This document shows positions 11,295 to 33,855 of a stretch of DNA of 64,000 nt, piece by piece. The notes below the pieces were generated by a model. That model saw nothing but the letters and a program-made list of their open reading frames with translations. It ran no database searches and had not been told where the DNA came from. A program made the translations under genes and the position numbers. This stretch comes from Clostridia bacterium (GTDB lineage Bacteria; Bacillota; Clostridia; Oscillospirales; CAG-272), in the NCBI GenBank assembly GCA_017938205.1, contig JAGBCA010000050.1, forward strand, positions 53,881 through 117,880, read 5' to 3'. Each line of letters starts with the position of its first letter. Position 1 is the first letter of the stretch.

Positions 11295-12630
11295 AACCCA
11301 AAAATTCTCCTTCGAAGTTCTTAATTTTTTCTTCCGCTTCGCATATTTGTTTTTTCACATCGGCATCACCGGCCAAATATCTTTTCAACAAAGCCCCCGA
11401 CATTTTGCACAAGTGATCATGCGTTGGGAAATAGGCTCGAAGAAGGAAATGTGCAAATTTTGCAAGTGTAAGATCTCCTACAATTCTTGGCGATTCCCCC
11501 TTCGCACAATATACTGCCACGCTTTTTCTATCGGATATTGATTTTATAATATTAAGATCTTTAACAAAAGCAAGCGTGAATATCTCCCCAAAGGCCGTAA
11601 TGCCATCCGAAACGGTATGAGAATCAGACGAGGCAACGACGGATAAATTTCTGTTTTTTAAGGAATAAAAAAGAGAGACCTGCAGATCGTTTCCCTCAGG
11701 GGTGCAACCGCCGAAGACCTCGAAAGCATCGGCTATGCCATTCTCCAGAACGGCCGTGCTCATTCTCGTATCTGCGTTGAATCGCTCGGGTAGCTGCCAA
11801 AAGGGATGCGGAAGAATCGCATAACCGCCGCTCTTTTTTATTTGCTCGTAAATCACCGCACGCAAAAGGTATTCTCTCTCATAAAGCCCATTCGGAACGG
11901 TATATTTTTCTTTCGCTTCTTCTAATAGGTGCGCAAGCCTTTGCGGCCGATTTTGCAACAAATCGCTGATAGAACGGTCGCCGCCGATACAGACGGTATG
12001 AATCACAGCGTCTTCCTTTTCGTGAATCTCCTCACCCGGCAAAACGATCAAGGGGTTGGCGAAAGAAAAATATTCCGTCAATGATTTACCGTCAGAAAAC
12101 CTATGATGATCCGTGATGGATATGAAATCAAAACCCGCCTCTCGGTATGCGGCCACGTTATATTCGGGCGTCTCCTTTCCATCTGAAAGAGTGGTGTGAA
12201 TATGCAGATCCCCTTTCATGGGTATACGGCCATACAGATCGTCCGTCAAGCAAAATATGGAAAGCCTTGCGCGCGTTTCGGGGAAGGAATCTGTCCAATA
12301 CCACTCGACTTCGTTATCATCTTTTTTTCTAAGATAGATTATCCATTCCTGACAGCCGTAAAAACGGTATTCAAACGATATTACGCCGTCCTTCGGAGAA
12401 AGATCAATCGCCTTTGTTTGCTTTTCCGTACCAAGCTGCGAAAAATATCCATCGCCAATAGGTTCGCTATAGTCCTTTGGAAGTATCCGAAGCTCAAAAG
12501 CATCCGTATCACAAAATGCTAAGTTTTTTTCCGCAGGATAAATGCGTATCTTAGAAACCTGTCCGTTTTGGACAACGGACGGGCGAATGTAGTATTTCGT
12601 TTCGTTTATATAAGAATGAGAAGGATACAT
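11278..12630 (-). CDS. PHP-domain metallohydrolase (CehA/McbA-like)
   Basis: The 450-residue protein has an N-terminal beta-rich domain (about 1-130). A PHP phosphoesterase domain follows, whose first motif is GDLHIHTTLSDG near residue 140. ITDHHRF supplies further His/Asp metal ligands, and conserved HPFW and SSDSHTVSDG follow. PHP proteins hydrolyse phosphoesters or related bonds with two or three metal ions. It lies between the CapA-like gene (2 bases upstream) and the GH78-like gene (17-base overlap). A role in processing a phosphorylated or esterified sugar product of the island is plausible but not shown. The family call is firm and the substrate unknown. Confidence 0.8.
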   Translation of the reverse strand: MYPSHSYINETKYYIRPSVVQNGQVSKIRIYPAEKNLAFCDTDAFELRILPKDYSEPIGDGYFSQLGTEKQTKAIDLSPKDGVISFEYRFYGCQEWIIYLRKKDDNEVEWYWTDSFPETRARLSIFCLTDDLYGRIPMKGDLHIHTTLSDGKETPEYNVAAYREAGFDFISITDHHRFSDGKSLTEYFSFANPLIVLPGEEIHEKEDAVIHTVCIGGDRSISDLLQNRPQRLAHLLEEAKEKYTVPNGLYEREYLLRAVIYEQIKKSGGYAILPHPFWQLPERFNADTRMSTAVLENGIADAFEVFGGCTPEGNDLQVSLFYSLKNRNLSVVASSDSHTVSDGITAFGEIFTLAFVKDLNIIKSISDRKSVAVYCAKGESPRIVGDLTLAKFAHFLLRAYFPTHDHLCKMSGALLKRYLAGDADVKKQICEAEEKIKNFEGEFLGYDLLY

Positions 12631-12631
12631 T

Positions 12632-13726
12632 TTATTCTTCGTCTAAGCAATTCGTGTGGTTGTAGGTCTTGAAAAGCTCGCGCCAAACGTCCGTATGCGC
12701 TTCGCAATCGAGGAAGTGACCGAAAACATCGGTTTCCTCCTGCGTAGCATCGGGAGCAAGCGTACGAGCAAGCACATTATAGTAAAGCTCGGAGCGTTCT
12801 TCGCAGAAGGCATGCCAGCCCTTTTCCCATTCTCCGTTCGTAAGCTCTGCATTTCTCTTCTCAAATCCGGCCATGATCTCCTTTGCATCCTCCCCCTCGG
12901 CAAGCGAAATACCGTTTTCAAGAGCACGGATGGGAGTAAATTCGATTGCATGGGTTTTTGTATCGTATTTGACTCCAAGAGAGGTAAACCAGCCCTCTTC
13001 CTTGGAATTTTTATTCACGAAATGGAAGTTGCCCTGGCCGTAGAGAATATGACATCCCTCATACTCTTCATAGCAGCCGATACAATGGCTATGCTGGCAG
13101 ATGACAACGTCTGCGCCGTTTCTCGCCATAGCACGGCAGAGGCGCATAAGACGGGGCGAGGGATAACGGCAGTATTCCTTGCCGCCGTGATAAATCACGA
13201 TAACGCGGTCAGCATTCGCCTTTGCTTTGCGGATATCCTCCATCGTATCATATTCATCATAAGGACGTGCTCCCATACGATTTTCGAGTGCATAGGAATA
13301 CTCATGCTCGCAAACAGTGATAAAGACGATCCTTTCTCCGTCTCTTTCAAGAATATAATCTTTTCTTGAATCCTCGTAATTCTTACCCCAACCGGTGTAA
13401 TCGATACCAACCTTATCAAGCGCGGCAAGTGTATCCTTAATTCCCTGCACGCCAAGGTCAAAGGTATGGTTGTTGGAAAGGCCGCAAAGATCCACCGAAA
13501 GCTCCTTCAAAACCTCTGCGGTTTCAAGCGGAGCGGCGAGATTTGGGCCAAACTTTTTGATTTTTCCATCGGTTTCCGTAAGGGCGCATTCAAGATTGAC
13601 AAAGCAAAAATCCTTATCCATCATATAAGGAATTACGTTTGTGAAAAGCTTTTCCGTTTCCTTTGCGCGGAAGAGCTCTTTTGTGTTGTAGACGGGGGCG
13701 GTATCGCCGAGAAGCAATGTTTTCAT
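12632..13726 (-). CDS. CapA/PgsA-family metallophosphoesterase-like protein
   Basis: The 364-residue protein shows the CapA pattern: MKTLLLGDTAP at the start, FVNLECALT, LSNNHTFDLG, VIVIYHGGKEY, then GADVVICQHSHCIG and YGQGNFHF. These carry the Asp, Asn and His ligands of a calcineurin-like metal site. Characterised relatives act in poly-gamma-glutamate capsule synthesis, but those are membrane-anchored. This protein has no signal or anchor and sits in a glycosidase operon, so a soluble hydrolase role is more likely. AAGGAG lies 8 bases before the ATG. It is the first gene of the island and divergent from the AraC regulator. Confidence 0.8.
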   Translation of the reverse strand: MKTLLLGDTAPVYNTKELFRAKETEKLFTNVIPYMMDKDFCFVNLECALTETDGKIKKFGPNLAAPLETAEVLKELSVDLCGLSNNHTFDLGVQGIKDTLAALDKVGIDYTGWGKNYEDSRKDYILERDGERIVFITVCEHEYSYALENRMGARPYDEYDTMEDIRKAKANADRVIVIYHGGKEYCRYPSPRLMRLCRAMARNGADVVICQHSHCIGCYEEYEGCHILYGQGNFHFVNKNSKEEGWFTSLGVKYDTKTHAIEFTPIRALENGISLAEGEDAKEIMAGFEKRNAELTNGEWEKGWHAFCEERSELYYNVLARTLAPDATQEETDVFGHFLDCEAHTDVWRELFKTYNHTNCLDEE

Positions 13727-23753: not shown

Positions 23754-24644
23754 TCATTTCAGAAGTTCTTTTTCCGAGAATGTGTATTCCGATCCGCAGA
23801 AGCGGCAAATTGCGGTCAGCTCTCTGGGCTTTCCCTCCGCCTCCTGCTCATCGAGCATTGTAAGGATCTCGGTTTTTGCGAGTGAGCGGATCTTTTTCTT
23901 CATACGATCCGAAGAGCAATCACAGCGATAAGAGACCTCGAGCGTATCAAAGGGATCAAAAGGAATGTCCTTTAAAGCAATATCGGCGATCTCCTGATTG
24001 GAGAGTCCCTTTTCAAAAAGCGCGGAAATATGTGAGAGTGCTTCTGCATTGCGCTCAAGGAGCGAAACGGTCTGCTCTTCGGGGAAAGGAAGCAATTGAA
24101 TCAATACGCCGCCGGCCGAAAGACAAGAGCCATCCTTGTCAACAGAGACTCCAAGCGAAAGCAACGTTGGCACCTGCTCACTCTTTGCAAAATAAGTAGC
24201 GATGTCCTCCGCGATCTCACCGCTGACGATCTCGACCGTTCCCGTTTGAGGTTCACCGCTCGCAAGATCGCGTACCATGAATACAGTGCCTGCGCCAATC
24301 GCGTTACCAACATCAGGCGCGCCGTTTTTTTTGCGCGGAAGATCGACAGAAGGGTTCTCGATATATGCCTTCACGCATCCGTAGTAATCCGCAACCGCAA
24401 GCAGCTGCCCGAGCGGGCCGCTCCCCTTGAATCCAACCGTTACGGAATCTCCGGCCTCGGGAAGCATGCTGCCGATCATTGAGGCGGCAGTAACAAGGCG
24501 ACCGAGCGCAGCCGTTGCTGTAGGAGCGGTTTTATGCGTTTTGATCATTTCATTGACCATATCACGCGAATTCAAAACGAGAACACGGGCACTGCCATCT
24601 CTCGTCATTCCGCGAAGCATCGTTGCATTTTGATTGTTTTGCAT
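23754..24644 (-). CDS. hslO: Hsp33 redox-regulated chaperone
   Basis: The 296-residue holdase is switched on by oxidative unfolding of its C-terminal zinc centre. The N-terminal domain shows LRGMTRDGSARVLVLNSRDMV and GPLGQLLAVADYYG. The C-terminal zinc ligands are present as CDC near residue 240 and CRFC near residue 278, matching the CxC...CxxC pattern. GAGGAAA lies 8 bases before the ATG. The gene starts 10 bases after the methyltransferase stop and is the last gene of the operon that begins with the TerB_N gene. Its presence adds an oxidative-stress flavour, along with the SOD-like gene that follows. Confidence 0.94.
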   Translation of the reverse strand: MQNNQNATMLRGMTRDGSARVLVLNSRDMVNEMIKTHKTAPTATAALGRLVTAASMIGSMLPEAGDSVTVGFKGSGPLGQLLAVADYYGCVKAYIENPSVDLPRKKNGAPDVGNAIGAGTVFMVRDLASGEPQTGTVEIVSGEIAEDIATYFAKSEQVPTLLSLGVSVDKDGSCLSAGGVLIQLLPFPEEQTVSLLERNAEALSHISALFEKGLSNQEIADIALKDIPFDPFDTLEVSYRCDCSSDRMKKKIRSLAKTEILTMLDEQEAEGKPRELTAICRFCGSEYTFSEKELLK

Positions 24645-24654
24645 AGCATTTTCC

Positions 24655-25410
24655 TCACTTTTTACATCTTGCGACTATATACAGACGGTCATCGGTATCA
24701 TCTGCCGCGTGAAAATCAAAATCATTATAAGCACCGATAAATTCAAACCCCGTTTCTTCAAGAATACGGCGAAGGGTTGCGAGAGGATACATTTTCTCGC
24801 TCTGCACCTCTTCGGAGCGCACGTATCTGCCGTCACGCTCCTTCGAAAACAAGGTGATAAAGAAGCGACAAAGGTGGCTTTTTTCGTTATACTCGTTTTC
24901 CCAGATACAAAAATCGTTCCCCTCCTCGAAAACGTAGGTCTCATCGGCGTAAACGGTTTCGAATTTATGCTTTCCGTTAACGTCAAAGATAAACAGACCA
25001 TCGGGATCAAGATAATTATGAACGAGAGAGAAAACAGAAGAAAGATCCTTTTCCTTCGTAAGATGATTGATCGTATCAAGACAAGAGACGATCGCCCCCA
25101 TCGTACCGTAAAGCTCAAAGCGGCGCATATCCTGACATAACCAAAGAATACGCTCCGAAAGTCCGGCCTCTGCTGCCGCCTCACGTGCACGCCCCAGCAT
25201 ATTGACGGAATAATCAATACCCGTCATATCATAGCCTTTTTTTGCGAGGGCAAGCGTCATTTTTCCCGTACCGCAACCGAGATCCATAACCAGATTTGGG
25301 CGTGATTTCATTTCCCTATCAAAGATCTGCTCTATAAAAGAAGCCCAGGCATCGTAATCGATTTCACTATTGATGCGATCGTAAAAATCGGCAAGCAAAT
25401 CGTATATCAT
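24655..25410 (-). CDS. Class I SAM-dependent methyltransferase
   Basis: The 251-residue protein has the Rossmann motif I VMDLGCGTGKMTLALAKKG (about residues 43-60), motif II MTGIDYSVNML and motif IV-like IVSCLDTINHL. The last ends in Asn-His rather than the NPPY or DPPY of DNA N6-methylases, so a small-molecule or protein substrate is more likely than DNA. Its ATG overlaps the helicase stop by 4 bases (ATGA), so it is translationally coupled to the helicase. That coupling makes a functional link possible but does not prove it. Substrate is unknown. Confidence 0.88.
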   Translation of the reverse strand: MIYDLLADFYDRINSEIDYDAWASFIEQIFDREMKSRPNLVMDLGCGTGKMTLALAKKGYDMTGIDYSVNMLGRAREAAAEAGLSERILWLCQDMRRFELYGTMGAIVSCLDTINHLTKEKDLSSVFSLVHNYLDPDGLFIFDVNGKHKFETVYADETYVFEEGNDFCIWENEYNEKSHLCRFFITLFSKERDGRYVRSEEVQSEKMYPLATLRRILEETGFEFIGAYNDFDFHAADDTDDRLYIVARCKK

Positions 25411-27644
25411 AGATCTATCCTTTCTCCCCCGAGATAACGCGCTTGAAGCTCATGCAATTGCAAACGGTCCGAAGCATACGCTTGCCGCAAAAGCTCAGGA
25501 GGTATAAATTCATCATATTTGTCATAAACGGGACATTCGGATGCACCTACCAAGCGTTCGGTATCCTCGCCGAGATTTTCGAGAATATCGCGAATCGCAT
25601 TTTCAAGATGCTCTGCGGCACCGTCCTTTGCCTTGAAGGTAATATAGCAACACCCCTGAGACTCTATATCGGAAATACCAAGCTCGGAGGAATAGGTTTT
25701 CAAAATGCGGCGAAGCGTTCTGAAGGAGACCGTTCCGAGCCACGGGAACAAAACATAGCTTTGTCCACCAAGCGAAACGAGATTTTTCTTCGCAAGCCCC
25801 GCCTTGGCGGCCAGGTGACGCGCATCCGATAGGCGATGCGCTGCATTTTCCGAAAGATAAGGATATTGCTTGTCCGAAAGAAGCACGCGGCGCATCGCAA
25901 GCAGAAGCTTGGTATGGATCTCGCCGCTATCTCCCGGCCAGGAGACCTCCATTTTTCCGTTCACGTGATGAACGAAGACAAGGCGGCGCGAAACGTCCAG
26001 ATCCTCAACCTCCCAAACGCGACCCGCAAGAGCAAAGCGATCGCCCGCGGGCGGCGGCGTCGTGATCGTTCCGATCTCTTCACTGCCGCAACGCACAGTA
26101 AAATCCTCGCTATCCTGAAAGACAGCATAAAATTTATAATTGTTGAGTATACGCTCGCCAGCAAGACCGATGATCAACGTTTTCTCCTCCGTCAGCTCCA
26201 AATATTCGTTATTGATCATGGAGACGAGAAGTGCGCGGTATGTATCCTTAGGCAAAGCCGAAAGCGGCGGAAGTGATAAAAGGCTCTCTGCCAAGGCGGC
26301 AGGCGTTTTTTCGCCCTCGGAGACAAGCAGGCTGAGCGTTTGATGAAAGGCAAGGCTAAGCGGCATTTTTTTGACACGCGGGGGCTCGATAAACCTCTCA
26401 TCCGCATATAGATCCACGATGGCAATGCCCCGCAAAAGATCCCAGGGAATCAACTGCGGCAAAGGCGCATTCGGTAGCGGTGTCGCTTCCCTATAAACCA
26501 TCACCATTTCGGGTGGTGAGCCGCGGCGGCCGCTGCGGCCAAGCCGTTGCAAGAAGCCAGAAACCGTGGTTGGTGCGCCCACCTGTGCCACACGTTCAAG
26601 ACGGCCGATATCAATACCAAGCTCCATCGTGACCGTTGCGCAGGTGACAGCCCGTGTAATGCTCTCGTCCTTCATTCTCTGCTCTGCATCCTCGCGAAGC
26701 GAAGCGGAAAGATTACCGTGATGAATAAGAAATACATCCTCCTCACCGCGTGACGCCGCAATTTGGCGCAAGGTAGCGGTCACGTACTCTGTTTCTTCTC
26801 TGGAATTGGAAAAAACCAATGCCTTTAAATCAGAAACGCAGTCATAAAGATATTCATATCCCGGATCGAGAGCCGCATGACCGCCCTCGTTTTCTTCCGT
26901 CGGACGAAGCGTTTGGCACTCTCTTTGATCCTCCACGTAGAAATGCGCCATACCAAGACGCCATTTTAGAGGCAAACGTAAGGGCTCGGGAGCAATACAG
27001 CCTCGACCGCTCCCCGCGTTGAGCCAAGCAGTAGCAACCGAGGTATCTCCGATCGTGGCGCTGAGACCGATCCGACGAGGATGATACCCTATAAAGCGCG
27101 CAAGGCGCGTGAGCTGACAAAGGATCTGACTGCCGCGATCCGAGCCGATCATCGTATGGATCTCGTCCAATACGATAAAACGAAGTCCGCCAAAAAGACG
27201 GCAAATATCGTTGGGGCGGCGGATCAGAAGCGACTCCAAGGACTCGGGCGTGATCTGTAAAATACCCGAGGGATTTTTCAAAAGATTGGTTTTGTGTGAG
27301 GCACCAACATCTCCGTGCCAATGATAGACAGGGATACCGGAGGCATCCATCACCTCTTCCATACGCAAAAACTGATCGTTGATGAGGGATTTAAGCGGCG
27401 CGATATAAAGAACCGCCACAGAATTTTCTACCGGCTGCTCCGTCAGCAACGTAAGGATCGGAAAGAAGGCAGCTTCGGTTTTTCCGGATGCGGTGGAGGA
27501 AGCAAGAAGAAGGTTCTCATCGCTATCAAAGATCGCATCCGCGGCAGCGATCTGAATGGAACGAAAGCTCTCCCAACCGCGAGAATAGATATATTCTTGG
27601 ATGAACGGTGGGAATCTTGTAAAAATCTTATCCGCTTCAGTCAT
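25407..27644 (-). CDS. Lhr-like superfamily II DEAD/DEAH helicase (third gene of TerB_N/BrxD-like module)
   Basis: The 745-residue protein has helicase motif I TASGKTEA (residues 51-58), Ia IAPLKSL, II DEIH (160-163), III LSAT and motif VI QRLGRSGRRG. TMELGIDIGRLERVAQVGAPTTVSG precedes motif VI as in the Lhr/YprA group. A winged-helix and a C-terminal region resembling the Lhr core follow, but the protein lacks the large extension of full-length Lhr. It starts 14 bases after the BrxD-like ATPase and overlaps the methyltransferase by 4 bases. Helicases of this type recur in BREX and other defence or DNA-repair modules. Translocation on DNA is inferred. Confidence 0.9.
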   Translation of the reverse strand: MTEADKIFTRFPPFIQEYIYSRGWESFRSIQIAAADAIFDSDENLLLASSTASGKTEAAFFPILTLLTEQPVENSVAVLYIAPLKSLINDQFLRMEEVMDASGIPVYHWHGDVGASHKTNLLKNPSGILQITPESLESLLIRRPNDICRLFGGLRFIVLDEIHTMIGSDRGSQILCQLTRLARFIGYHPRRIGLSATIGDTSVATAWLNAGSGRGCIAPEPLRLPLKWRLGMAHFYVEDQRECQTLRPTEENEGGHAALDPGYEYLYDCVSDLKALVFSNSREETEYVTATLRQIAASRGEEDVFLIHHGNLSASLREDAEQRMKDESITRAVTCATVTMELGIDIGRLERVAQVGAPTTVSGFLQRLGRSGRRGSPPEMVMVYREATPLPNAPLPQLIPWDLLRGIAIVDLYADERFIEPPRVKKMPLSLAFHQTLSLLVSEGEKTPAALAESLLSLPPLSALPKDTYRALLVSMINNEYLELTEEKTLIIGLAGERILNNYKFYAVFQDSEDFTVRCGSEEIGTITTPPPAGDRFALAGRVWEVEDLDVSRRLVFVHHVNGKMEVSWPGDSGEIHTKLLLAMRRVLLSDKQYPYLSENAAHRLSDARHLAAKAGLAKKNLVSLGGQSYVLFPWLGTVSFRTLRRILKTYSSELGISDIESQGCCYITFKAKDGAAEHLENAIRDILENLGEDTERLVGASECPVYDKYDEFIPPELLRQAYASDRLQLHELQARYLGGERIDL

Positions 27645-27658
27645 AAATCTGCCTCGTT

Positions 27659-29050
27659 TTAAATTTCTATATCAAAGATTGTTACGGTTTTCTTCTGTGA
27701 ACTATTTGGTTGTTCCTCCGGCGAAGCGCCCGAAGCTGTTTCCGTATTCACTGTCATATTCTTCTGTGCAGCTTCGTTTTTCATGCCGCGAACAAGCGCA
27801 TCAAAGGTGGCATCGGGATTATCTCTTAAAATGTTCAGAAGCGTCAAAAAGTCTCTTATGATCTCACGCGGCGTAACCATATCCTCTGCTCCGATCTTGC
27901 CGAGAGCACAGGACATAAAGGTTTCTATCTCTGTCTGCGAAAGCTTGGGAGCTCGTTCCCCCTCCTTTTGGACATAAAGCTTATAAAGTCGCACGACAAG
28001 CGCGTACAGCTCGTTATCCGAAAGACGGCGCAAACGGATCACAGGAGATGCAAGATTTCTATATCCAAGCTCTGTATAACGCGAATCGCAAAGGCGCGAG
28101 CGCAAAGCCTCGTAGCTGAAGAGGCCGCGGCGTGTATCCTCGAGGAACTGCGGTACACCGCCAATCACAACGCCTATGCTTTTTGCTTTGCCCTGCAATG
28201 TGTCGTTAAAGATCGCAAGAAGCTTTTCGTAATTCGCCTCACGGGAAATACGGTTGGGGATCTTATAAAGATTTACGCATTCATCCACAAAAAGAAGCAG
28301 GCCCTTGTAGCCGATCTTTACGGTTAAAGCGGCAAAAAGCTTGATAAACTCATACCAATTGTCGTCTCCGATAATGTGGCTGACCTGGAAGCCGAGGGCG
28401 TTTTTCGCCTCGGTTTTGGTTATAAACTCGCCGCGTAAAAAGCGCAGGCAGGCACTCTTTCTCTCCTCGTTTTCCTCTAAGGATGCAAGATAATATTCCG
28501 CAAGGACCCGTGCAAAATCAAAACCGCCAACATCCCCCTCAAGCTGTGCAAGCGTGCGGTATACCTTCTTTTGCAAAAGCGTGGCAAACGTGGGATCTCT
28601 CGGCAGCGTTCCTTCTTCGATCACTGCATTTTTCAGACTCACGAAATAGCGCGAAAGTATGAGCGGTAACGCTCCGCCCTCCGGTGAGGCCGATGAAGCG
28701 AGATGCGCAATCAGTTCCCTATAGGTCGCAAGTCCTGCACCGTTGCCGCCCGTAAGTCTACGCTCCGGAGAGAGATCGGCATCGGCAGTGAGAAAACCGC
28801 GCTCCAATGCATGACTGCGAATGAGCTGAATCAAAAAGCTCTTACCGCTTCCGTATCGACCGATCAGAAAGCGACAAAAAGCCCCACCGTCTGCCACCGT
28901 CTCAAGATTCTCAAGCAAAGCGGCGATCTCATCGTTTCGACCAATGGCAATATAAGGCGCACCACTACGCGGTACAACACCTGCCGCAAGGGATGCGATC
29001 AGTGTATTTAATATTCTTTTTGGTATTTTTACTTCTGCCTGTTCAACCAC
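27659..29050 (-). CDS. BrxC/BrxD-family (DUF2791) P-loop ATPase
   Basis: The 463-residue protein has Walker A GRYGSGKS (residues 64-71) and Walker B LLLFVDE (251-257). The arrangement, RILNTLIASLAAGVVPRSGAPYIAIGR up front and YRNLASPVIRLRRLSDNELYALV near the C-terminus, is that of the DUF2791 ATPases, which include BREX BrxD. The C-terminal 30 residues are polar and Ser/Glu-rich, likely disordered. It starts with GTG at 29050, inside the TerB_N gene end (22-base overlap), with GAGGAA 9 bases upstream. The enzyme probably forms an ATP-driven DNA-handling complex with its neighbours; that is inference. Confidence 0.88.
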   Translation of the reverse strand: MVEQAEVKIPKRILNTLIASLAAGVVPRSGAPYIAIGRNDEIAALLENLETVADGGAFCRFLIGRYGSGKSFLIQLIRSHALERGFLTADADLSPERRLTGGNGAGLATYRELIAHLASSASPEGGALPLILSRYFVSLKNAVIEEGTLPRDPTFATLLQKKVYRTLAQLEGDVGGFDFARVLAEYYLASLEENEERKSACLRFLRGEFITKTEAKNALGFQVSHIIGDDNWYEFIKLFAALTVKIGYKGLLLFVDECVNLYKIPNRISREANYEKLLAIFNDTLQGKAKSIGVVIGGVPQFLEDTRRGLFSYEALRSRLCDSRYTELGYRNLASPVIRLRRLSDNELYALVVRLYKLYVQKEGERAPKLSQTEIETFMSCALGKIGAEDMVTPREIIRDFLTLLNILRDNPDATFDALVRGMKNEAAQKNMTVNTETASGASPEEQPNSSQKKTVTIFDIEI

Positions 29051-30612
29051 TCGGACACTTCCTCTCTGTAATCCTCGATCAAGACGGCACCGCCGTCACA
29101 AATTTCCAATACAACGTCGTCAAGGATGGCGAAAAATATTTCATTAACCTTTTCCGCAAGAGACTCCTCCGGCAAAGCGGATCGCCTTACGGTTTCTTTT
29201 TTCTCGGTTTCATCTGCACTTATTAGCGCACGCAAATAACGAACTACATATACATCCGCAGATTCTTCGGCGCGCTTCGTATCTTCCTGTACCTCGGCCT
29301 CGACGATTGGTTCGTCAATAGAATGCTCTTCATCGGAAATCTTTTCATTTTCCTCTGTGTCAACAAGACGCCAAGTGTTTTCCCAGGAGCTTTGCTCGAT
29401 CGCATCAGCGCCGGCAAAGGACATTTCTTGTCTTGGCGCATCGTAGAGCGTTTCATACGATTCGCGCTGCTCCAATCGGCGTTTTTCGTTCACGGCACGA
29501 AAGAGCGTTTCAAAATACATATCGATCAACGCCTTATCCTTCTCGTGAAGATTTTTCACAGCAAGACGGCTTTTAACGGAAAGTGCCGAGCGCAAGCAGT
29601 TTTCAACGTACTTCAACGCGCTTGTCACACGTGCACGAAGCGCATCCGAACGGCCAAGCGGATAATACTCGATCTCTATGCGGCATTTAACGCTATGCGT
29701 GCATAGCGAGCAAGGAAAAGCATCTCGCGTAAGACGCTCTGTAGCGGCATCCTCACAAAAAAGCGCACCGCTTTCCCAAAGAGAGCGAAGCACAGGGAGC
29801 ATGGCTCCCTCAACGTGCTTTTTATACATATCACGGTGCTCACCGCCCGAATAGCGGCCGCTCCGCCAATCATAATCCGAAAGACATGAAAGCAAAGCCG
29901 TGATCTCCCCGGCATTTTTTGAATACACGCCGCCGAGGTAAAACTCCTTGAAGGAGGCGGCATCTATAATCTCATATATAAAATCCTCGATCTCGGCCGT
30001 AGGCGCATCAAGCTGATGCACGATGCAATAATCCTGCACCCAAACCGAGAAATACCGATCGATCGCAGGCAGGCTCTTCCGATAAGCGCGCCACAGCTTG
30101 CACAAAAGAGAAATTCCTTGTTTCGGCGGTATTTTTTCGGGCAGATTTAAGATTTCATATACATAAAGATACAAGTAGGAGATGTCAGCCCGCAGTGAAT
30201 AATTGCCCTTACGGATCTCGGAGCGAAGATAAAAATAGTAGCTCTTTTGCTCCGCATTCATCTGCGAATACTGCGGCATATAGGAATAAAAGGAAACGAA
30301 GGACGATGGCTCGGCAGCCACGTCATAGTACAGGAGTGCTGCCTTTCGGAAGCTCTCGTAAAAATCATATCCGCCCTGCATACGGCGAACGGTAACCTTA
30401 CGAATGAGGGGATTGGAGAGCGGCACGTAGGTGCTCTCCTCCATTTTCGCACTGCGGCCAAGCACCGTAATGCGGTTTTCTTCAGGCTTTGCATCGCCCG
30501 CGATCTCGAAGGAGACCGTTTCATTCTCGGTTTTGAAGCGAGGCTGCGGCTTTTTCGCATTCGGAGCAAGCTTCGAAATATCCCAAAAATCGTCTCTTTG
30601 ATCCTGTGCCAT
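29029..30612 (-). CDS. TerB_N-domain protein, first gene of the ATPase/helicase module
   Basis: The 527-residue protein has a TerB_N domain at about residues 60-270, including SFVSFYSYMPQYSQMNAEQK, YYFYLRSEIRKGNYS and SYLYLYVYEILN. A Cys cluster CSLCTHSVKC (301-310) may bind metal. A charged helical region, an acidic low-complexity stretch (about 430-475) and a short C-terminal helix follow. TerB-type domains occur in tellurite-resistance-linked stress and defence systems. The start at 30612 is chosen for AAAGGAGG 7 bases upstream. The gene has its own strong promoter and overlaps the BrxD-like gene by 22 bases, so all three products are expected in fixed ratio. Confidence 0.85.
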   Translation of the reverse strand: MAQDQRDDFWDISKLAPNAKKPQPRFKTENETVSFEIAGDAKPEENRITVLGRSAKMEESTYVPLSNPLIRKVTVRRMQGGYDFYESFRKAALLYYDVAAEPSSFVSFYSYMPQYSQMNAEQKSYYFYLRSEIRKGNYSLRADISYLYLYVYEILNLPEKIPPKQGISLLCKLWRAYRKSLPAIDRYFSVWVQDYCIVHQLDAPTAEIEDFIYEIIDAASFKEFYLGGVYSKNAGEITALLSCLSDYDWRSGRYSGGEHRDMYKKHVEGAMLPVLRSLWESGALFCEDAATERLTRDAFPCSLCTHSVKCRIEIEYYPLGRSDALRARVTSALKYVENCLRSALSVKSRLAVKNLHEKDKALIDMYFETLFRAVNEKRRLEQRESYETLYDAPRQEMSFAGADAIEQSSWENTWRLVDTEENEKISDEEHSIDEPIVEAEVQEDTKRAEESADVYVVRYLRALISADETEKKETVRRSALPEESLAEKVNEIFFAILDDVVLEICDGGAVLIEDYREEVSEWLNRQK

Positions 30613-30648
30613 AACCGCGCCTCCTTTGTCTGCTTTTCTTAACAATAT

Positions 30649-30677
30649 ATTATATCATAGCAGTCGTAGTTTGTCAA
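30649..30677 (-). promoter_or_regulatory. Strong sigma-A promoter of the TerB_N/BrxD-like/helicase operon
   Basis: On the minus strand both boxes are perfect: TTGACA (30677-30672) and TATAAT (30654-30649) with 17 bases between. Confidence 0.88.
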
Positions 30678-30747: not shown

Positions 30748-30896
30748 TGCGACGTAACTGAATATTTTCCAAATAAGGATGTACTATGCCATTTTAGTAC
30801 TTCCGTCTTTTTCTATACCTTATTTGGAAAAGTTGCGTCGCGGCAAAGTGAAGTGCTTTATGGAGTGCGCTCGCTTTGCGGGCGCATTTTTATTTT
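30748..30896 (+). ncRNA. Candidate structured small RNA or terminating leader
   Basis: From the predicted start, 30749-30758 pairs with 30832-30841 (10 bp, one G-U). After a 6-base one-sided bulge, 30765-30778 pairs perfectly with 30818-30831 (14 bp). The apical region holds a 6-bp hairpin GTACTA/TAGTAC. The RNA ends in a GC-rich 10-bp stem (30865-30874 with 30878-30887) and a T tract, a typical intrinsic terminator. No open frame of useful size is present. It could be a 6S-like or trans-acting RNA, or a conditional leader for the lipoprotein gene that begins 29 bases downstream and has no other visible promoter. No match to a known RNA family was recognised. Confidence 0.6.
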
Positions 30897-30924
30897 AGAA
30901 AACAAAAAAAGGAAGGAAAACGAA

Positions 30925-32433
30925 ATGAAAAAAACTCTAAGCCTTATGCTTCTTACGGCAATGCTTTGCACGATGCTGACCGCCTGCGATTGCAAACATA
31001 AGGAAACCGATTGGGAGACCACAAAAGAAGCAACTTGTACTACCGAAGGTCTGCGTAAGGAATTTTGCAAAAAATGCAAAGAGACATTGCAAACGGAAAC
31101 AGTCAAAAAGCGCACTACGCACACGTCTGGCACACCCGTACAAGAAAACATTGTGAATGCCACGGCAACACAAATGGGCTCTTTTGATGAGGTTTTTTAT
31201 TGCACGGTTTGTCATACCGAAATTTCGCGAACAAAGAAGGATCTTCCTATTGGATCTATCATTTCTCCCGACAGCGGCAATAACGAAGGTAATAGTAGCG
31301 GTGAGGGCGCACCCGAAAAAACACCAACGGAGGGTGTAATCTACGAGCTTTCCGATGATAGCACATACGCAATCGTTTCAGGGTACGAAGGCGCGAGCAC
31401 GGACGTTATAATCGCATCCACATATCAAGGCGTGCCGGTGACGGAAATTGGCTATCGGGCGTTCAAAGACCGCACGCAGCTTGCAAGCATTCACATTCCC
31501 GATAGTGTAACGTGCATTAATACTTCTGCATTCCAAAATTGCACTGCCCTCACGAGCATCAATATTCCAAGCAGCGTGACGAATATTCAATATTGGGCAT
31601 TTGAGGGGTGCGACAACCTTGCCTACAATACGTACGATAACGCATATTATCTTGGTAACGCAGAAAATCCTTATTACGTACTGATGGAAGGCATCAATAA
31701 AAATATCACCTCCTGCAAAATTCATGTGGATACAAAAGTTATTGCAGGGAGAGCATTCTATGCCCATAAAAGCCTTTCGAGTATCACCATTCCGAATAGC
31801 GTGATGAGTATTTGCTATCAAGCGTTTGATATTTGCGAAGGACTTACAAGCATTCACATCCCCAATAGCGTGCAAATATTGGACAGCTGGGCTTTTGGTG
31901 CTTGTTCAAGTCTAAAAGCGGTCACCTTTGAAGAGAGTAGTCAATTATCGATCATCGGTTGGGCAGCGTTTTGTAGTTGTAAAAGCCTTACAAGTATTAA
32001 CATTCCGGATAGCGTGACGAATATTGGCATGGATGCCTTTTTTGAATGTACGAGTCTTACGAGCATCCATATTCCGAAAAACGTGCAAGCAATCGGAGAC
32101 TCTGCTTTTAGCGACTGCTCAACCTTACAAACAGTCACTTTTCAGGAGGGGAGCCATTTGGTAAGCATTGGCTATGGGGTTTTCAACAATTGTGTAAAAC
32201 TTAGTAGCATCACCATTCCGGCTAGTGTAACGAGTATTGGCGATTATGCATTCAGCTGGTGTATCAAACTTACGAGTCTTGCGTTTGCAGATCCAACCGA
32301 TTGGTATAGGACGAATAATTACGAGGGCTGGGAAAATAAAACCGGCGGTACGCAGACTTCTCTAAGCGACACGAGCACGAATGTTGACTATTTCATATCA
32401 GCATATATTGACAGTTATTGGTACAAGAAATAA
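30925..32433 (+). CDS. BspA-type leucine-rich-repeat lipoprotein
   Basis: The 502-residue protein has a lipoprotein signal peptide: Lys-rich start, hydrophobic core and lipobox LTAC with Cys21. A short Cys/Lys segment with three CxxC-like pairs follows (CTTEGLRKEFCKKCKETLQ, CTVCHTEISR), which resembles the metal-binding or disulphide linker found before LRR_5 domains. From about residue 170 to 480 there are about a dozen LRR_5 repeats of about 23 residues (pattern IPDSVTxIGxxAFxxCxxLTSI). Such proteins are surface-exposed adhesins or ligand binders in gut bacteria. AAGGAAGG lies before the ATG at 30925. An intrinsic terminator follows. Confidence 0.92.
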   Translation: MKKTLSLMLLTAMLCTMLTACDCKHKETDWETTKEATCTTEGLRKEFCKKCKETLQTETVKKRTTHTSGTPVQENIVNATATQMGSFDEVFYCTVCHTEISRTKKDLPIGSIISPDSGNNEGNSSGEGAPEKTPTEGVIYELSDDSTYAIVSGYEGASTDVIIASTYQGVPVTEIGYRAFKDRTQLASIHIPDSVTCINTSAFQNCTALTSINIPSSVTNIQYWAFEGCDNLAYNTYDNAYYLGNAENPYYVLMEGINKNITSCKIHVDTKVIAGRAFYAHKSLSSITIPNSVMSICYQAFDICEGLTSIHIPNSVQILDSWAFGACSSLKAVTFEESSQLSIIGWAAFCSCKSLTSINIPDSVTNIGMDAFFECTSLTSIHIPKNVQAIGDSAFSDCSTLQTVTFQEGSHLVSIGYGVFNNCVKLSSITIPASVTSIGDYAFSWCIKLTSLAFADPTDWYRTNNYEGWENKTGGTQTSLSDTSTNVDYFISAYIDSYWYKK

Positions 32434-32947: not shown

Positions 32948-32982
32948 TATTATACGTGAGAAAAAAGAAGGGGCGAACGTAT

Positions 32983-33855
32983 ATGAATCACACGGAAAAA
33001 GCACCGGCAAAAATCAATCTATATCTGAACGTGACGGCGCGGAGAGCGGACGGCTTTCACAACATTGAGACCGTGATGCAGACGATCGACCTCTATGACA
33101 CCTTGCATTTCTCTCTTTTCCCTGCCGAGCAGACCGAGATTACGCTTCGCTTTTCCAAGGCTTGCGATTTACCGACGGACGATCGCAATCTGATCGTGCG
33201 GGCGGCAAAAGCGTTTCTTTCGGCGGCAAAAAAATGCGCCCAGGTGAAAATTTTGCTCGAAAAGAAAATACCGATGGCGGCGGGGCTTGCCGGAGGATCG
33301 GCCGATGCGGCAGCTACGCTACGGGCGTTGGATTCGATGCTTCCGGGCATACTCACACGGGAGCAGCTATTTGAGATTGCGGCCTCGCTTGGCAGTGATA
33401 TTCCCTTTTGCCTGCTTGGCGGACGGGCGCTTTGTTATGGGCGCGGTGAAATTTTAGAACCGATTTCTGCGAGGGATGAGGGATTTTTCGGCGTACTTGC
33501 CAATACGGATGAGGTTTCCTCCACGCCAAAGGCGTATGGCGATTTGGATCGGAGGTATCATAATTTTGACGGCAGTGTGGCATTGCCTGCAGATCTTTTG
33601 GGGCGCGACGCGCTTGGCGCGGTGCGTGAGGGGGTCACGCCTCCCTTCTATAATATTTTCGAGGAAGCGGTGCTTCCGCTCTGTCCTCGTGCTACCGAGG
33701 CAAAGGCGCTCCTTTCATCTATGGGCGCAGAAGCTGTGATGATGAGCGGCAGCGGACCTTCGGTTTTTGCTTTGACAAAAAACGAGGCTCTTGCAGAAAA
33801 AATGCAGTCCGCACTCGCCGAGCGCGGATATGATGCGCGGCGTTTTTCCTTTTAA
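32983..33855 (+). CDS. ispE: 4-diphosphocytidyl-2-C-methyl-D-erythritol kinase
   Basis: GHMP-family kinase of the MEP isoprenoid pathway, 290 residues. It has APAKINLYLNVTARRADGFH at the N-terminus (Lys and Asp-like catalytic region), the ATP-binding MAAGLAGGSADAA near residue 97, and MSGSGPSVFAL near 250. Length and motif order fit the family. The ATG at 32983 is chosen over a GTG 27 bases upstream because the promoter places the transcript start about there and AAGGGG lies 10 bases before the ATG. It works with IspH (5141-6004) to make isoprenoid precursors. The gene stands alone and is followed by tRNA-Lys with a separate promoter. Confidence 0.95.
   Translation: MNHTEKAPAKINLYLNVTARRADGFHNIETVMQTIDLYDTLHFSLFPAEQTEITLRFSKACDLPTDDRNLIVRAAKAFLSAAKKCAQVKILLEKKIPMAAGLAGGSADAAATLRALDSMLPGILTREQLFEIAASLGSDIPFCLLGGRALCYGRGEILEPISARDEGFFGVLANTDEVSSTPKAYGDLDRRYHNFDGSVALPADLLGRDALGAVREGVTPPFYNIFEEAVLPLCPRATEAKALLSSMGAEAVMMSGSGPSVFALTKNEALAEKMQSALAERGYDARRFSF

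Follow-up and report, generated by a model that had tools for sequence, protein, structure and literature searches.

The stretch of DNA analysed here, referred to as the window, comprises 64,000 nucleotides from a Clostridia bacterium (assembly GCA_017938205.1, contig JAGBCA010000050.1, positions 53,881 to 117,880) and contains three tightly packed genes for a TerB_N protein, a BrxC/BrxD-type ATPase and a helicase. The question raised by this locus is whether the trio is a phage defence system, a remnant of one, or part of the cell's own genome maintenance. A first-pass annotation had described a coupled module of a TerB_N protein, a BrxD-like ATPase and an Lhr-like helicase without the bacteriophage exclusion (BREX) system and had named stand-alone defence and housekeeping as alternatives; the description was borne out and the alternatives proved apt. 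The named, experimentally shown system to which the genes correspond, Shango, was missed. As judged from the sequence comparisons below, the trio is most plausibly a Shango long resident in these gut bacteria and mainly vertically inherited, probably serving standing DNA surveillance.

Identity of the three genes

All three genes lie on the minus strand, at 29029..30612 (sngA), 27659..29050 (sngB) and 25407..27644 (sngC), and the coordinates and tight packing given earlier were confirmed. As calculated from these coordinates, the sngA open reading frame (ORF, 29029-30645) overlaps sngB by 22 bases, a gap of 14 bases separates sngB from sngC, and sngC overlaps a following methyltransferase gene by 4 bases.

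The three adjacent, same-strand genes matched the PADLOC profiles of SngA, SngB and SngC in that order, with E-values of 4.6e-36 (profile positions 69-527 of 528), 5.7e-158 and 4.6e-236, respectively. The corresponding values for BREX profiles were 3.8e-43 for SngB (BrxD) and 5.6e-121 for SngC (BrxHI), and the NCBIfam BrxD score of SngB was 148 bits, under the curated cut-off of 350. The domains read from the sequence in the first-pass annotation were recovered with Pfam: TerB_N in SngA (3.5e-17; 63.3 bits, cut-off 25), BrxC_BrxD/DUF2791 in SngB (3.8e-144) and DEAD and Helicase_C in SngC. Profile searches on the three proteins had been proposed there as a check; in PADLOC, BrxD and BrxHI ranked well behind SngB and SngC.

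PglZ (PF08665) was not found in the genome of the window, which is 84% complete; for PglX, which had likewise been called absent, no search was made. On the profile matches, the trio is assigned to Shango and not to BREX. It shares the ATPase family with BrxD, and its helicase is related to BrxHI, but it has a TerB_N partner in place of the BREX partners.

Shango was reportedly described in E. coli by Millman et al. in 2022. According to PMC10250203, it is an anti-phage system with TerB-like, ATPase and helicase genes, and anti-phage activity is known for it in other bacteria; the Shango of E. coli and Pseudomonas aeruginosa resembles the window trio in its three adjacent genes and in their order, namely TerB_N protein, BrxC/D-type ATPase and DExH helicase.

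The TerB core domain PF05099, which PMC10952713 lists for Shango, was not detected in the window SngA at E-values up to 0.001, and the C-terminal similarity to TerB_C was weak (Pfam, 5e-4, under the cut-off). Because the core was undetected while the PADLOC SngA profile still matched, the trio is classed, by its domain content, as a variant of Shango rather than a typical representative. Among 10 further SngA proteins (E-values up to 0.05), the core was present in 2, from Klebsiella and Pseudosulfitobacter plasmids, and undetected in 8, including that of a Paenibacillus plasmid trio.

A TerB core hidden in the middle of SngA found no support: when SngA was aligned profile to profile with its proteobacterial counterparts, using a very shallow template, the TerB_C region (probability 49%) and a piece of TerB_N (probability 11%) were the only parts joined. 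The AlphaFold model of SngA, built from a two-row alignment, was unusable (mean pLDDT, the predicted local distance difference test, 36). The CxxC-x5-C cluster noted earlier does occur in the SngA sequence and is not conserved, with C312, C315 and C321 (numbered from TTG 30645) kept in 2/42, 33/42 and 25/42 genus rows, respectively; a metal site was rejected on this ground.

The catalytic features of the other two proteins were well preserved. SngB carries Walker A at residues 64-70 (GRYGSGK) and Walker B at D256 and E257, SngC carries the motifs GKTEA, DExH, SAT and QRxGRxGRR of a superfamily 2 (SF2) helicase, and both sets were kept in at least 97% of 71 rows. The AlphaFold model of SngB reached a pLDDT of 81, and the fold search returned general AAA+ matches only, mostly with template modelling (TM) scores of 0.2-0.4, among them RdrA, ORC/Cdc6, HslU, TnsC and, at rank 17, BrxC. 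PMC12278908 places SngC with BrxHI, DruE and DpdJ in one possible SF2 clade; none of the effectors of those systems was seen among the 10 neighbours scanned.

The near-consensus promoter reported at 30649-30677 was confirmed. Read from 30677 to 30649 on the minus strand, this sigma-70-type site matched TTGACA-17-TATAAT at 12/12 positions, with a spacer of 17 and a TG ahead of the -10 element (extended -10). A promoter scan gave 7 sites at 9/12 or better, compared with 7.3 expected, and the trio promoter was the sole 12/12 site. The sngA ORF opens at TTG 30645, and a ribosome-binding site, AGGAGG (30625-30620), precedes ATG 30612; the start is therefore likely to be ATG 30612 and not TTG 30645, giving a predicted product of 527 aa.

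Inheritance within the genus

The genus sample comprised 69 genomes, including that of the window, and SngC was accepted at 1e-100 or better; 22 genomes with a completeness of 90% or more and a contamination of 5% or less were regarded as near-complete. SngC was present in 49/69 genomes and in 20/22 near-complete ones, compared with 57/69 and 22/22 for the control gene hslO. The 12 genomes with neither SngC nor hslO were all at most 80% complete. The trio was single-copy, and no partial loss of it was seen in the genus; in G043, one of these 12 genomes, SngB lies at the end of a contig and SngC is not seen.

Gene neighbourhoods were counted in fetched loci in which both partners were visible. 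SngA and SngB adjoined in 42/42 loci, SngB and SngC in 43/43, SngC and the methyltransferase in 44/44, and the methyltransferase and hslO in 50/50, 7 of these being trio-less. Because the trio genes adjoin in every genus locus showing both partners, a chance arrangement was ruled out. The sole exception in the genus was G008 (L063, L081), in which one contig holds the trio together with ispE and another the methyltransferase-hslO pair; it was not counted in the 44/44.

The methyltransferase gene (24655..25410, minus strand) encodes a class I S-adenosylmethionine (SAM) enzyme (Methyltransf_25, 3.5e-18) matching small SAM methyltransferases, and is the first gene of a host pair with hslO (23754..24644, minus strand; Hsp33 redox chaperone, HSP33 5.1e-77). 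On the other side lies ispE (32956..33855, plus strand), assigned by its translation and not named by a profile. Of the 23 trio loci showing both ispE and sngA, 16 have ispE co-oriented with sngA and no more than 1.5 kb upstream of it, 5 have it at 2.9-6.7 kb, and in 2 (the window and G038) it is inverted; the remaining trio loci had no ispE match within the fetched stretch.

Eight genus genomes carried hslO without SngC, and seven of these were fetched (G011 was left out). In all 7, the trio was absent and ispE lay beside methyltransferase-hslO, with 29-327 bp between match ends. The methyltransferase had been suggested as a possible further member of the module; since it persists beside hslO in these 7 trio-less genomes, it was rejected as a fourth component and is a host gene, not part of Shango. 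A wider search (E-values up to 0.001) found no SngB elsewhere in 6 of the 7, and the seventh, G102, was searched for SngC only. At one trio-less site (L075, G050), a transposase-like ORF, of IS30 type by eye, was seen beside ispE at 12158-13228.

In a 52-genome tree built on hslO, PFK (phosphofructokinase), methyltransferase and IspE, four changes were needed to explain where the trio is present or absent. A single clade for all 7 trio-less genomes was rejected (p 5e-42), and without G005 it was not rejected (p 0.08). Because the one-clade test fails with G005 and passes without it, two changes are regarded as safe and four as likely. Since every deep branch includes carriers, loss rather than gain is the probable source of the absences, on a tree whose root was not inferred.

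The SngB+SngC tree (39 genomes) shared 17/19 strong splits with the tree of hslO+PFK+IspE, with no strong conflict, and all 13 strong splits of the SngA tree were present in the latter as well. The distance correlation between SngB+SngC and hslO+PFK+IspE was 0.77, compared with at most 0.36 in 500 shuffles (39 genomes). The genes compared are neighbours of the trio, and transfer together with the flanks would stay invisible here.

Median identity to the window protein was 64% for SngB and 68% for SngC, compared with 63% for hslO and 60% for PFK; the values for the methyltransferase, IspE and SngA were 57%, 45% and 41%, respectively. The ratios of nonsynonymous to synonymous substitution rates (dN/dS), rough estimates with dS above 1 in most pairs, were 0.04-0.12 for SngB, 0.04-0.10 for SngC, 0.06-0.24 for SngA, 0.03-0.11 for hslO and 0.04-0.16 for PFK; one value of 0.59 (SngC, G032 vs G105) was dropped, both being fragments. 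Base composition of the trio resembled that of the neighbouring genes. Judged by these ratios, the trio is under purifying selection, and its descent in the genus is inferred to be mainly vertical, with losses of the whole unit.

Co-occurrence and split loci in the wider order

Across the order, 394 evenly sampled genomes were searched with thresholds of 1e-100 for SngB and 1e-110 for SngC. Each protein was found in 86/394 genomes: both in 84, SngB alone in 2 and SngC alone in 2. The latter are L176 (G398) and L177 (G226), with SngC and no SngB at 1e-100; by eye, the SngC gene of G398 lies downstream of a pnp-like gene.

In the 84 co-carriers, SngB and SngC lay within 5 kb of each other in 65 and not in 19. 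Three of the 19 (G074, G208, G282) may reflect contig ends or had a context that was not read. In the other 16, the context was read: SngA-SngB (SngB alone in G316) was followed by other genes, and SngC was located on another contig. At most eight split events would account for these contexts.

The places of the split genes, with neighbours named by Pfam from ten scanned proteins, are given by family label (f1, f2, f6, f7, f10, f16, f17, f20 and f26, the genus of the window belonging to f1). The f16 SngC gene lay between a CvpA-type gene and lgt-folD in 4/5 of the genomes fetched; SngA-SngB stood ahead of a Sua5/CoaE gene in 3/5, and both places recur across two genera. SngA-SngB of f6 stood upstream of the RNase Y gene in 3/3. 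Within f1, SngA-SngB was found ahead of alaS in G246 (and, by eye, G313) and near dnaK in G456, and SngC after the phosphofructokinase gene in G246, with one same-strand ORF between, and after the alanine racemase gene in G456. Split copies also occur beside truA, and in f1 genera other than that of the window the flanks differ from genus to genus.

A tree of 69 SngB sequences (17 genus members, 48 drawn from the remaining 83 positives in the order, and 4 plasmid copies) resolved f17, f16, f6 and most of f1 into clades following taxonomy; a second clade mixes f1, f2, f7, f10 and f26, and three members of the window's family carry Shango of this mixed clade. Of the strong SngB splits, 28/29 were found in the SngC tree, and 28/33 in the reverse direction, with two strong conflicts.

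Distances of SngB and SngC agreed in the unlinked genomes (n = 15, correlation r 0.80) and also without f16 (n = 10, r 0.82), with 0/2000 shuffles reaching either value; for the 5 unlinked f16 genomes alone, r was 0.99 (93/2000 shuffles). The genomes are related, so the shuffles overstate the agreement, and the splits represent fewer events than genomes.

A class control of 391 genomes yielded SngB in 27 and SngC in 30 (both in 25, SngB alone in 2, SngC alone in 5). In all 23 co-carriers outside the order the pair was linked; one, G459, has an extra SngB and an extra SngC on different contigs. Unlinked pairs were thus found in 19/84 co-carriers of the order vs 0/23 of the class outside the order (Fisher p 0.011), or in 16/81 vs 0/23 (p 0.020), values uncorrected for kinship.

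Mobile relatives were also observed. SngB-like genes, some of which may be BrxD, occurred on 691/72,556 plasmid records, 542 of them typed conjugative, and the four plasmid loci opened were complete trios. A relative at 36-39% identity was present on 8 viral contigs, and none was found in 50,697 phage records at 1e-5. Shango is reported among rumen genomes in PMC13356809 and on E. coli genomic islands in PMC11096173. No description of vertical or split Shango was found in the titles and abstract openings searched, subscription literature being outside their scope.

Several variants of gene content were noted in passing. Two tandem SngC genes directly follow SngB in G184, G337, G350, G362 and G432, all of f20, and in G485, making a two-helicase Shango; an in-frame TAA interrupts the second copy in G485. 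In-frame TAG codons inside otherwise good matches were seen in SngB of G140 (L173) and SngC of G282, from decay, assembly error or recoding. One f16 SngA (L130, 7128-9380) has about 290 residues ahead of its TerB_N match (294-452), and other f16 SngA proteins are long too.

Possible role of the trio

SngA, SngB and SngC would act together as one DNA-directed machine. The fast-evolving SngA could serve in recognition or docking; SngB, a BrxC/BrxD-type AAA+ ATPase, would assemble on DNA, engage SngC and drive or load it; and SngC, a helicase of the BrxHI/DruE/DpdJ clade, would translocate on DNA and keep phage or other mobile DNA that enters the cell from replicating. Either phage DNA or the cell's own damaged DNA may be the target in this lineage, and the trio would work here as standing, inherited surveillance rather than as a travelling module.

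The resident trio could instead be a housekeeping genome-maintenance complex, handling for example replication or repair intermediates, with phage defence left to related mobile copies. Its single copy, near fixation in the genus, hslO-like and PFK-like conservation of SngB and SngC, purifying selection, unlinked copies beside lgt, folD, truA, alaS, dnaK or the RNase Y gene, and f16 places common to two genera would all fit this possibility, which is nevertheless regarded as unlikely: the trio is missing from several genus members, through at least two independent events and four on the best tree, SngB is absent from most genomes of the order, and the closest characterised relatives are anti-phage according to PMC10250203. 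Universality and synteny in all related genomes had been named in the first-pass annotation as favouring housekeeping; the outcome is mixed, since in the genus the trio keeps its synteny next to the methyltransferase and descends mostly vertically, yet is absent from several members and, in the order, patchy (86/394 genomes).

It is considered improbable that the trio is an ordinary mobile defence module which has entered a single hot spot time and again and passes from species to species by recombination through the flanking genes. The concordant trees of the genus, in which exchange together with the flanks is invisible, and a resident SngB clade that follows families f1, f6, f17 and f16 argue against it, even though plasmid and viral copies, the mixed-clade Shango in three members of the window's family, and the differing deep relatives of SngB and SngC in f16 are what such a module would leave. 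A degraded BREX locus is scarcely credible, and was rejected: the cross-matches of SngB and SngC to BrxD and BrxHI fall far short of the Shango models, BrxD remains under the NCBI cut-off, PglZ has no match in the 84%-complete genome, and the trio is intact and under selection.

Several observations weigh against the preferred reading of a long-resident Shango engaged in surveillance. The core-like conservation, single site and housekeeping surroundings would equally fit a maintenance role, SngB is absent from 308/394 genomes of the order, and the upstream side of the trio varies between genus loci. The usual context of Shango, a defence island or mobile element (perhaps not a defining trait), was not encountered in the genus, where the trio lies beside methyltransferase-hslO; the P. 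aeruginosa copies, by contrast, lie in a core defence hotspot according to PMC10250203. The ten near neighbours of the trio, scanned with PADLOC at 1e-10 or better, contained no clear defence gene, the lone match being a Nudix-type protein (PDC-S07, 4e-11). The methyltransferase also matches part of PADLOC mad2 (2e-17), which is read as general methyltransferase similarity.

Further points of this kind concern the proteins themselves. The TerB core undetected in the window SngA was seen in both proteobacterial SngA scanned. The divergence of SngA is equally fast in the mixed clade; it therefore does not single out SngA as a receptor here, and was for the same reason rejected as a feature specific to the resident lineage. 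In one of the two strong conflicts between the SngB and SngC trees, the f16 SngC proteins (L165-L168) group with four mixed-clade members (support 100) and the f16 SngB proteins do not; the f16 SngA-SngB and SngC genes may have been acquired or exchanged separately, with distinct histories. Within f1 alone (6 unlinked genomes), SngB-SngC distances agree only weakly (r 0.44, 101/2000 shuffles).

A broader proposal, regarded as unlikely, is that the Shango proteins of this order may make up a DNA-maintenance machine that belongs to the inherited core and tolerates having its subunits encoded at unlinked housekeeping loci, with the mobile three-gene defence cassettes of other bacteria as its offshoots, or the reverse. 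Patchiness, mobility and clustering of genes are the usual signs by which a defence system is recognised, and in this genus Shango shows the opposite, being inherited and syntenic. Some relatives, unlike the published copies, have SngA-SngB and SngC at separate loci and still retain both; such separation is not typical of defence systems and suggests that the proteins have a standing role in the cell. Should the trio still defend, it would show that a defence system can become established as standing immunity for as long as a genus has existed; otherwise Shango would do something for the cell itself, and its mechanism would become accessible to ordinary genetics. With the split genomes it can be tested cleanly which Shango proteins depend on one another, and they are a reason to look for defence parts without an adjacency rule; tools demanding adjacency would miss split Shango.

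Two minor observations were made around the window trio. Between 23600 and 30900, 22 terminator-like sites were counted, compared with 10.2 expected from shuffles. A BspA-type leucine-rich-repeat protein (8e-66) is encoded at 30853-32433, divergently from sngA, and BspA-like matches were found near the trio in several further genus loci too.

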